The notes beneath the pieces were generated by a model, which was not told the DNA's origin, made no database searches, and saw nothing but the letters and a program-made list of their open reading frames with translations. The position numbers and the translations under genes are program-made. Positions 56,951-59,393 of a stretch of DNA of 64,000 bases are shown here, in pieces. Origin of the DNA: Paraglaciecola psychrophila 170 (GTDB taxonomy: Bacteria; Pseudomonadota; Gammaproteobacteria; Enterobacterales; Alteromonadaceae); NCBI RefSeq assembly GCF_000347635.1, contig NC_020514.1, positions 3,038,001 through 3,102,000 of the forward strand. Reading direction: 5' to 3'. The number at the start of each line of letters is the position of its first letter. The stretch's first letter is position 1.

Positions 56951-57401
56951 GAGGAATTTGAGGACGATCATCCTAAATTTATTACTGACGTTAATAAAAG
57001 AATATGCATACACAACTCTCGAAGGCAATGCTCTTGAACCGGAAGTTTTGCGAGTTTCGAGTTGAGGCGAGCAACAAGAGGCTCGCCTTTGCAGACTAAG
57101 AGTTTTGAATGGCTTTACTATGGATGAATTTTGTTACGACCCCAATTAATTTCAAAAAGTAATTTTATTGTTCGTGGACCACTGCATTTTCACACTAAAT
57201 TTGATTGTATGGATACGAATGTCAGAAATGAGACCGCGAGTCCTAGTCGACCACAACGGTTATCGGTGAAAACACGACCCTCATTCTACTCCTCACTCTG
57301 TGAAGCCATTTGGTACTTACAGTTACACATCTTAATTCTGTTCTTGAACTTAAAACGTTTTGACAGTAATCAAGTAGCACTTATCAAAAATAAATAACCA
57401 A
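56951..57401. other. Gene-free stretch after pepE, with a hairpin
   Basis: No supported gene; an 88-codon frame at 57131-57397 resembles no family and runs into the promoter of the next element. AGGCGAGC (57065-57072) and GCTCGCCT (57081-57088) form an 8-bp stem followed by TTT, a possible pepE terminator. TTGACA (57360-57365) and TATCAA (57382-57387) with a 16-bp spacer precede the 91-bp element. Confidence 0.45.
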
Positions 57402-57492
57402 AAGTTGAACTTATGCCTTAACTGCCCCTCTGAATATATAGTTTTTATGTGTGTTCCCTTTTTAAGCCTGATTTTCCATCAGGCTTTTTTTT
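57394..57492 (+). ncRNA. Candidate small RNA, copy A of a 91-bp repeat upstream of cheV
   Basis: Bases 57402-57492 are repeated at 58974-59064 with the same length and about 83 of 91 positions identical by eye. The 3' part is a textbook intrinsic terminator: AAGCCTGAT/ATCAGGCTT around TTTCC, then eight T. Differences fall in two short patches; the first 14 bases, CCCCTCTGAATA and the last 47 bases are invariant. A promoter-like TTGACA-N16-TATCAA ends 14 bp before the repeat, giving an RNA of about 100 nt. No reading frame is conserved between copies. Confidence 0.55.
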
Positions 57493-57784
57493 GCGCTTTT
57501 TTTACTGCTAATAGTCATCAACAAAGCCATCATGGTAATTCAACCCTTTGTCCTTAAAGAACATAGCAAGGATGGCGATAAGCATTAACGCATTCTTATA
57601 ACTTGATACTAGGATATCAAGCCTTCATGATGTAAGTGCTACACATAGTTACTTCTATGCTCGTTGCCACTCAGTTACTGCGTTAAACCTCGGTCTCCAT
57701 TTCAAAAGTTGCGACTTGGCCATGCAGTGCATCGATTTAATCTAGTTTCACTCTACTCAATTCACTTAATAACTAGATGAAGGG

Positions 57785-58771
57785 ATGAATTATCAATACA
57801 CTCATGTTAATTTTATTTTGGTCGATTCGAGCAGTACCAACTCATTATTTTATTCACCGGAGAATGTTGTGGCCTCTAAAGCTAACTACTCACAAGGGCT
57901 ACTACTATTTCGCCTAAAAAATGGTCGTCAGTATGCTTTGGGAACCTTAAAAATCCAAGAGCTTGTGCCGTATAAAGCGGTAACGAAAATGATTAAGTCA
58001 GAACCAGGGGTTAAAGGTGTTTTAACAATTCGTAATCAAACTATCGCAGTGATCGATATGGCTGAAGTGATAGGGCTTGGCCCAATTTCAGAAAGTAATC
58101 TCAGCCAGTCTTTTATTGTTGTGACCGATTGCCAACGAAAAGTAGTTGGCTTTATTGTTAGCCAAATTGAAAAAATTGTTGAAACCAATTGGCGAGAAAT
58201 CAAGCAGCCTGATAAAAAACTAGGGGCCGGTGTTTTCATTACAGGGACGGTAGAAGTTGAAGGTGAGTTTATTCAACTGATAGATGTAGAGTTACTTCTT
58301 AATAAAATTTTCCCTCCAGATCCGCGGGCGGCATTAGCGGTGGTTACCGATTTTCAGCGGGAACAACTTAAACCCATGAATATATTAGTGGTTGATGATT
58401 CATTGACCGCTAGGCGGCAACTAACTGATGTTTTAGAGCTCCTGAACGTACCATTTCATGTTACGGACGATGGTCATAAAGCTTTAGTGTACATGCGTGA
58501 GCAAGCTTCCAGTGGGCATCCAGTTAACTTGTTAGTCTCCGATATTGAGATGCCAGGTTTAGACGGATATGAGCTAACTTTTGAAGTGCGTAATTTGCCG
58601 GTATTGGCAGCTGCCTACATCATTCTTCACACCTCGTTATCGAGTGCGATCAGTATTGGTCAAGCTCACCAAGTAGGTGCAAATGAAGCATTAACAAAAT
58701 TCGACGCAAAAGAATTGGTACTTTCTATGCTGCGAGGTGTCGAGTTTATCAATAACCCGCCTAAAGAATGA
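57785..58771 (+). CDS. cheV: Chemotaxis coupling/response-regulator protein CheV
   Basis: 328 residues: an N-terminal CheW-like domain (about 35-175; GLLLFRLKNGRQYALG; VLTIRNQTIAVIDM) and a C-terminal receiver domain (about 195-320) with VVDDS, the phospho-acceptor Asp in LLVSDIEMPGLDGYEL, the Thr/Ser in LHTSLSS and Lys in ALTKFDAKEL. CheV couples chemoreceptors to CheA and is itself phosphorylated, probably for adaptation. No other che gene lies near. The gene is bracketed by the two 91-bp repeats. Confidence 0.93.
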   Translation: MNYQYTHVNFILVDSSSTNSLFYSPENVVASKANYSQGLLLFRLKNGRQYALGTLKIQELVPYKAVTKMIKSEPGVKGVLTIRNQTIAVIDMAEVIGLGPISESNLSQSFIVVTDCQRKVVGFIVSQIEKIVETNWREIKQPDKKLGAGVFITGTVEVEGEFIQLIDVELLLNKIFPPDPRAALAVVTDFQREQLKPMNILVVDDSLTARRQLTDVLELLNVPFHVTDDGHKALVYMREQASSGHPVNLLVSDIEMPGLDGYELTFEVRNLPVLAAAYIILHTSLSSAISIGQAHQVGANEALTKFDAKELVLSMLRGVEFINNPPKE

Positions 58772-58965
58772 ACACATTAAAGTCATAGGTTAAGTTAAAT
58801 ACGATTTTCATTTGTACTTATCGTTATCAGCTAAGGACGGCTTGCCTAGCTAAGTTCTTTCGTTGAAAAAGATGACCTTGGGATTTAACAAAACATCTAG
58901 GATTTACTCTGTGACTTAACTTAAATCGATCAGACTACAATTGTGCAATGCCTATAGAAAAATAA

Positions 58966-59064
58966 TTAATAACAAGTTGAACTTATGACGTTATTACCCC
59001 TCTGAATAAACAGTGTTTATGTGTGTTCCCTTTTTAAGCCTGATTTTCCATCAGGCTTTTTTTT
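58966..59064 (+). ncRNA. Candidate small RNA, copy B of the 91-bp repeat downstream of cheV
   Basis: Second copy (58974-59064) of the element at 57402-57492, with the same terminator stem (59036-59044/59050-59058) and eight T. TATAGA at 58953-58958 occupies the same relative place as the -10 of copy A, but no good -35 was seen. It begins about 200 bp after the cheV stop, so it could also serve only as the cheV terminator. Confidence 0.45.
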
Positions 59065-59393
59065 ACTTTTTTATCTTCAAGTACATTAATTTTACTAATG
59101 CTCAACGAAGTGATCATTACTTTTCACTAACGTTTAGGTAATGACTTATCAAAACGAGTGGTGTACCACAACAAAGTGGAGAACTTCAAAAGTGAGCTGA
59201 TAAGATACTTATCACACAACCTTTATTACCTTATTTTTGGTTAAAGAAAAACAGATTGGAAGAAAGGGGGGCGCTTGCTAAAAGTGATGCTAACAACGCT
59301 TGGTCTGGCATCACTCGATGCAGCATATAGGTTTAAAAAGTATGCCAAGGACACTTACAAACATAAATCTCTCAATAATTTACACCTAGGATT
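59065..59393. other. Gene-free stretch between copy B and the DUF799 gene
   Basis: About 330 bp with no convincing gene, promoter or repeat. It lies between convergent units (copy B on plus, lipoprotein operon on minus), so it is probably 3' flanking DNA. Confidence 0.35.

Follow-up and report, generated by a model that had tools for sequence, protein, structure and literature searches.

The window, a stretch of 64,000 nucleotides from the Paraglaciecola psychrophila 170 chromosome, carries a cheV gene that is enclosed by two copies of a short element, copy A (57402-57492) and copy B (58974-59064; Table 1). As stated by the original prediction, both copies are 91 bp long and share 83 of 91 bases in an ungapped comparison, the mismatches falling on element positions 15, 17, 19, 21, 23, 36, 38 and 42. 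The 5' 14 bases are invariant as claimed, and the invariant 3' stretch comprises 49 bases and not the 47 given before. The block CCCCTCTGAATA is likewise present in both copies, and both end in an identical terminator with a stem of nine pairs and a run of eight T, as had been noted. This likeness is far beyond chance: used as query against the 5,413,691-base chromosome, copy B retrieves copy A at E 7e-31, and the six other copies retrieved have E values of 4.8e-13 or lower. The flanks are not alike, except for an A-rich run immediately 5' of each copy, to which the resemblance is limited (32 of 80 bases match upstream and 20 of 60 downstream, ungapped).

Table 1. Coordinates of the predicted features of both copies, of the enclosed gene and of Spot 42-like RNAs at related loci (window positions unless a locus is named).
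Feature	Position	Strand	Basis or remark
Copy A A-rich run, possible UP element	57386..57401	+	A-rich in the 8 BLAST-found copies and in alignment A3; role inferred
Copy A -35 element TTGAACTT, sigmaE type	57405..57412	+	GAACTT at 57407-57412, 16 bases before TCTGA
Copy A -10 element TCTGA, sigmaE type	57429..57433	+	TCTGA in 6/8 BLAST-found copies
Copy A predicted small RNA, ~53 nt	57440..57492	+	start inferred; 52/53 identical to copy B; fold z -4.75
Copy A seed core TATGTGTGTTCCC	57446..57458	+	TGTGT kept in relatives; complementary to TBDR translation-start regions
Copy A intrinsic terminator	57464..57492	+	terminator prediction and fold
cheV (CheW and receiver domains), between the copies	57785..58771	+	PF01584 and PF00072
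Copy B A-rich run 5' of promoter	58958..58973	+	A-rich in aligned copies; role inferred
Copy B -35 element TTGAACTT	58977..58984	+	sequence motif
Copy B -10 element TCTGA	59001..59005	+	sequence motif
Copy B predicted small RNA, ~53 nt	59012..59064	+	start inferred; fold z -4.49
Copy B seed core TATGTGTGTTCCC	59018..59030	+	sequence motif
Copy B intrinsic terminator	59036..59064	+	terminator prediction and fold
Spot 42-like RNAs below the Rfam threshold	L104:1299-1379, L167:1444-1557, L110:1692-1774, L161:1850-1936, L168:1436-1517

Two conserved parts of the element, the invariant 5' end and the CCCCTCTGAATA block, resemble the -35 and -10 elements of promoters used by sigmaE (RpoE/AlgU). GAACTT-N16-TCTGA, which is the form of AlgU promoters, is present in both window copies, and the first variable patch of the twins is the spacer of this promoter. 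TTGAAC is present in each of the eight genome copies retrieved by BLAST, and in each the -10 element follows GAACTT, or the variant in its place, at a distance of 16 bases, the sequence of the spacer varying freely; the -35 element is GAACTT in six copies, GAACGA in one and GAACTA in one, and the -10 element TCTGA in six, ACTGA in one and TCCGA in one. The same layout recurs in alignment A3 of 27 genus copies, the invariance of which is partly built in, since the members of A3 and of alignment A4 were chosen by patterns demanding GAAC and a -10 element (for A4 TGTGT as well); copies left out of A3 as non-fitting carry TCTTA (L014), GAATTT (L015) or TCTAT (L034 and the other L013 copy). The enteric sigmaE motifs given in the available text of PMC1804206 are GGAACTTTT for the -35 and GTCAAA for the -10 element. 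Unlike GGAACTT, the -35 element of the window copies begins with TTGAACTT. The genome contains one rpoE above the NCBIfam family cut-off, followed by two ORFs resembling rseA and rseB and preceded by GAACTT-N16-TCAAT; the RpoE model also gives 12 weaker matches. The strict motif GAACTT-N16-TC[TA]NA occurs at nine sites in 884 kb of the genome, five of them in members of the RNA family; the other five of the ten members, within the same 884 kb, deviate from it. Judged by these motifs, control of the RNA family by a sigmaE-type factor is very likely. A second TTGAACTT was seen at window positions 57344-57351, 61 bases before the copy A -35 element and with no -10 element seen at the right distance; it is perhaps a decayed copy.

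The original prediction had noted a -10-like hexamer at each copy and TTGACA at copy A, and it took the elements for paralogous regulatory RNAs; on this reading they would be ~91-100 nt long and made from sigma70-type promoters, with CCCCTCTGAATA as target-binding segment. A TTGACA indeed exists at 57360-57365, its start lying 42 bases upstream of copy A and the motif standing 16 bases before a weak TATCAA; it is not found near copy B. Moreover, prediction of sigma70-type sites in 57250-59250 returned three as compared to 5.5 expected from shuffles, none of them at either copy, by which a sigma70 promoter at the copies was rejected. The conserved 5' blocks are spaced as in a sigmaE promoter in all eight genome copies, and the segment between them is the most variable one. 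Since the 5' half of the element reads as a sigmaE promoter, the transcript expected is ~53 nt rather than 91 nt, and CCCCTCTGAATA would be the -10 block of this promoter and not a seed. We therefore regard the longer RNA from a sigma70-type promoter as quite improbable.

Under the sigmaE-type reading, transcription should start ~6 bases past TCTGA and yield an RNA of ~53 nt. Its predicted fold consists of a bare 5' part of ~24 nt with an unstructured seed (UUUUAUGUGUGUUCCC; UUUUAUGUGUGUUCYC), followed by the terminator hairpin and a U-rich tail. No pair of the terminator stem changed on both sides among the 27 genus copies of A3, and the stem thus says nothing beyond 'terminator'. A small protein was also considered and rejected: an ATG lies within the RNA, yet it is missing in several relatives, and indels shift the frame. 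The element is almost certainly a small RNA gene.

Copies A and B were originally perceived as a pair; they belong to a family of ~10 copies in this genome. Eight are strong (BLAST with copy B), a weaker ninth is located at 3425209, and a tenth lies between polA and engB. The ninth copy scores E 2.6e-7 with R2, a sequence-only model of promoter and seed, as compared to 0.0079 with R1, a covariance model built from the 27 genus copies and used at E<=0.001. The covariance-model search of relatives that had been proposed as a check gave R1 matches in 17 of 22 genomes of the genus and in 61 of 395 genomes of the family, the latter spread over 14 of 52 genera. The RNA core was recovered in ten named stretches, nine from Paraglaciecola (P. 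arctica, P. marina, sp. MB-3u-78 and uncultured) and one from Aliiglaciecola. Within the genus, copies frequently stand in pairs or tandem arrays, for instance four at G016:C1:222566-224393 and three at G009:C19:72645-75206. By coordinates, cheV has copies on both sides, upstream as well as downstream, also in G009 and G016, and the twin arrangement is thus common to at least three species. Recombination between the direct repeats could, according to the original prediction, remove cheV; in these two relatives the gene is retained between its twins. In the window as well as in G009, the cheV twins are almost identical in RNA body, including the terminator loop, and differ in their promoters. 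The cheV twins of G016 differ in both RNA body and promoter, and the other copies of the window's genome differ too. It is possible that gene conversion or recent duplication lies behind the shared bodies.

Two more pairs of copies with genes between them were noticed by eye in the window's genome (G000:C1:1912312-1913689 and 3314511-3317629); the enclosed genes are a substrate-binding-protein-like gene, apparently interrupted by a stop, and one that is transposase-like. Two GUGU-type seed motifs within one RNA (e.g. AUGUGUGUCCCUAUGUGUUUU) were seen in L016, L017, L049, L050, L060, L069 and L150:13374-13435, and L050 holds at least three elements with GUGU-type seeds in tandem.

R2 found matches in 114 of 395 family genomes and 25 of 52 genera, which is an upper figure since some of these matches (e.g. 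in G406 and G200) cover the promoter part alone. Among the weaker R1 matches, the promoter layout and a downstream TGTGT were present in all 25 loci listed, and the terminator stems were quite different. Across genera the terminators change but promoter and seed are retained, so the family is not just a terminator. This is the opposite of conservation restricted to the terminator stem, which the original prediction had named as speaking against it, and paralogous small RNA genes, not mere terminators, stand as the best explanation of the pair. Of the 47 matched genomes outside the genus, 37 supplied the 38 loci examined, and 33 of these loci are flanked by polA and engB. With the genus included, a relaxed promoter pattern was present in 34 of 39 polA-engB gaps, the remaining five being without match. 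In the window's own genome, the polA-engB element is located ~13.4 kb from the contig start and has a weak -10 element (TCCTA) and two seed-like repeats; it was reported by neither R1 nor R2 and became apparent upon inspection of the gap. The polA-engB gene is, to judge from this synteny, highly likely to represent the ancestral member of the RNA family across Alteromonadaceae. Applied to 369 genomes sampled from the class, R2 gave ten matches at E<=0.01, eight of them outside the family, at E 1.2e-4 or weaker and mostly partial; an order sample of 295 genomes gave 13 matches at E<=0.001, of which four lay outside the family, all partial. Hence, there are no convincing relatives outside Alteromonadaceae in these two samples, with the proviso that searches across more than 40 genomes use stricter filters, by which weak matches may be lost.

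On the polA side of the element, sub-threshold matches to Spot_42 were obtained at five of 25 polA-engB loci searched (best E 2.1e-7; Table 1). The gene order at these five loci is polA, Spot 42-like RNA, new family RNA, engB, and the Spot 42-like RNAs are probably diverged spf genes. Identity of the new RNA with Spot 42 itself was rejected: the matches lie beside and not on the element, and there is none in the window. An Rfam search of the 64-kb window at gathering threshold produced no match, hence none to RF00021 (Spot 42) or RF00079 (OmrA/OmrB).

It could be argued that the elements are selfish or passive repeats, of the promoter-terminator or MITE-like type, which spread in Paraglaciecola without a regulatory role. 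Dispersed and tandem copies are many, the flanks are unrelated, and one pair encloses a transposase-like ORF (by eye). Against this stand the syntenic form in other genera, which has other terminators and the same promoter and seed, and complementarity to mRNAs of TonB-dependent receptors (TBDRs) across three genera, as described below. Synteny with kept promoter and seed, taken together with this complementarity, therefore argues for selection on function, and we consider a mere repeat very unlikely.

The unpaired 5' part of the small RNA reads antisense to stretches at the beginning of TBDR genes, for example GGGAACACAUUAUG and GGAGAACACGAUG. Such genes are very numerous in Alteromonadaceae (PF00593 matches: 75 in the window's genome, 66 in G203, 67 in G189 and 52 in G016). 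A search for perfect targets (GRGAACACAC) in the genome yielded 15 sites as compared to seven for the reversed control; six are the RNA copies and the other nine lie at no evident ribosome-binding site, for which reason this search was replaced by duplex-based testing. For the window's genome, we used a set of 703 ORFs drawn from 40 stretches of 20 kb around TBDR genes or RNA copies, 30 TBDR loci, the window and one more 20-kb stretch. ORFs overlapping PF00593 matches (74) were classed as TBDR and the remaining 629 as other; at least one gene of the latter class (2204878) resembles the N-terminal part of a TBDR separated from its barrel. A site was defined as at least eight uninterrupted Watson-Crick pairs within -60 to +40 of the start, G-U pairs being passed over. 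Such sites were present in 21 of 74 TBDR as compared to 28 of 629 other ORFs (p 7.4e-10), a comparison to be read in the light of the other genes being mostly TBDR neighbours, of start codons set by a simple rule and of the paralogy, and lack of independence, among TBDR leaders. With the CCC seed carried by the window copies themselves, the counts were 20 of 74 and 24 of 629, respectively. The ratio of TBDR to other ORFs at eight pairs was reached by none of 200 mononucleotide and none of 100 dinucleotide shuffles of the seed. At seven, eight and nine pairs, 10, 3 and 13 of 200 mononucleotide shuffles, respectively, attained the raw TBDR count, as did four of 100 dinucleotide shuffles at nine pairs.

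Ranking by duplex energy placed nine TBDRs among the first 20 ORFs and 19 among the first 50, as compared to 2.1 and 5.3 expected. None of 150 dinucleotide shuffles reached the top-20 count, the top-50 count or the mean difference, and one reached the AUC. The family seed was weak by energy in this genome (AUC 0.556, p 0.057), and the terminator half of the RNA showed the opposite trend (AUC 0.385). The best target, TBDR 3238507, would form 19 continuous pairs (G-U included) across Shine-Dalgarno sequence and AUG at -29.5 kcal/mol. Tested with their native polA-engB seeds, G203 had sites in 21 of 54 TBDR as compared to 50 of 512 other ORFs, and G189 in 11 of 25 as compared to 24 of 259 (at least eight pairs). 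The eight-pair ratio was reached by none of 200 shuffles in either genome, and the nine-pair ratio by three of 200 in G189. In the energy test, the real value was reached by two of 60 shuffles for AUC and one of 60 for the top 20 in G203, and by none and one of 60, respectively, in G189. The seed of one genus works about equally well on the TBDRs of another. The seed is thus predicted to pair with outer-membrane protein mRNAs at the translation start in three genera, with a focus on Shine-Dalgarno sequence and AUG that is clear in the window's genome and absent in G203: sites centred on -20 to +5 account for 13 of 21 TBDR versus 11 of 28 other sites in the former, for six of nine versus eight of 19 in G189, and in G203 for eight of 20, no more than the 17 of 37 among other ORFs. 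Non-TBDR proteins with a signal peptide, assigned by a crude rule, were not enriched in these tests (p 0.37, 0.68 and 0.13).

These data also bear on whether a true sigmaE-dependent small RNA family may have its main partners elsewhere, among other mRNAs or in titration of Hfq, the TBDR signal then reflecting a shared style of ribosome-binding sites. The start regions of TBDR genes are paralogous and not independent, 53 of 74 are without an eight-pair site, and the sites of G203 are not concentrated at the start codon, all of which would fit such partners. However, shuffles of the same composition miss the eight-pair ratio in all three genomes, and the E. coli RybB and MicA seeds gave no TBDR enrichment in the same test. 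We therefore hold other main partners to be unlikely. TBDR mRNAs are probably the main targets, and given pairing, repression is the likely sign of regulation.

Small RNAs controlled by sigmaE are best known from enterobacteria, vibrios and Pseudomonas and act largely on porins. OmrA and OmrB are duplicated neighbouring small RNAs acting on outer-membrane receptors, and their comparison with the twins, drawn by the original prediction, is fair as an analogy of kind: both cases combine duplicated neighbouring genes with receptors as (predicted) targets, and they differ in promoter type and sequence, the gathering threshold of RF00079 not being reached in the window. The polA-engB slot of Pseudomonas presumably holds the ErsA gene. 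The ancestral members of the new family, and only these, would share with ErsA both this slot and a promoter of the sigma22/AlgU type. ErsA of P. aeruginosa is controlled by the sigmaE homologue sigma22/AlgU, represses the porin mRNA oprD and has been described as functionally orthologous to Spot 42 (PMC8395346, PMC7565897). At 132 nt (PMC5819304), it is longer than the new RNA of ~53 nt, and R2 has no convincing match outside Alteromonadaceae in the 369-genome class sample. ErsA is nonetheless the nearest precedent outside enterobacteria. Spot 42 (spf, RF00021) likewise shares the polA-engB region with the ancestral member, unlike the window copies. Also sX13 of Xanthomonas is encoded downstream of polA, as is the ancestral member, and differs in its 115 nt, its C-rich loops and its confinement to Xanthomonadaceae (PMC3771888). 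As for MicA and RybB, their levels rise once envelope stress has activated sigmaE, and the mRNAs of outer-membrane proteins are then switched off (PMC1804206). When compared to the promoters described there, the new family has a sigmaE-type promoter motif directly at the RNA gene, and it resembles MicA and RybB further in its terminator and in the predicted use against mRNAs of outer-membrane barrels. It differs in locus, sequence, high copy number, length (~53 nt as compared to ~70 nt for MicA and ~80 nt for RybB; PMC1804206) and in having TBDRs rather than porins as predicted targets. Searches of the literature, with supplementary tables outside their scope, turned up no paper describing the RNA found here. 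Systems of this kind are known; the RNA family, its bias towards TBDRs and its amplification appear to be new.

Taken together, the elements are best read as a family of sigmaE-dependent, base-pairing small RNAs that repress TBDRs and were amplified in Paraglaciecola. Gene anatomy, family, synteny, amplification and the statistical complementarity to TBDR mRNAs are sequence-based, and from them we infer transcription, start site, sigmaE dependence, use of Hfq and repression. We consider this reading probable as a whole; confidence in it is slightly lowered because the sites in G203 are not focused on the start and only some cheV twins share their RNA body. Each element would be a complete, very short small RNA gene composed of a sigmaE promoter, a seed-bearing 5' RNA and an intrinsic terminator. 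Envelope stress would free RpoE and thereby switch on the ~10 copies together. The RNA, probably with Hfq, would pair with the start region of many TBDR mRNAs and stop their translation; fewer TBDRs would be made, lowering the barrel load of the outer membrane. The ancestral polA-engB gene would have given rise to the dispersed and tandem copies in Paraglaciecola, two of which flank cheV.

Going one step further, we see a slightly better than even chance that Alteromonadaceae possess an RNA dedicated to envelope stress that arose between polA and engB, next to a relative of Spot 42, and pairs with the starts of a large share of TBDR mRNAs, thereby coupling membrane stress to the whole nutrient-uptake programme. 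The ~10 Paraglaciecola genes, with varying promoters and seeds, would in this case provide dosage and might also allow inputs to be tuned separately. Start-site data against which the claim can be held are available for Alteromonas macleodii Te101, for which dRNA-seq reported 127 chromosomal small RNAs (PMC5864184). The syntenic ancestor, the double-seed variants, the exchanged terminators and the ~10 copies together amount to a natural experiment in the duplication of a small RNA gene with its seed kept. If true, the sigmaE small-RNA logic acts here on TBDRs, the entry route of marine copiotrophs for polysaccharides, iron and vitamins, and through such action envelope stress would control the feeding of these bacteria.
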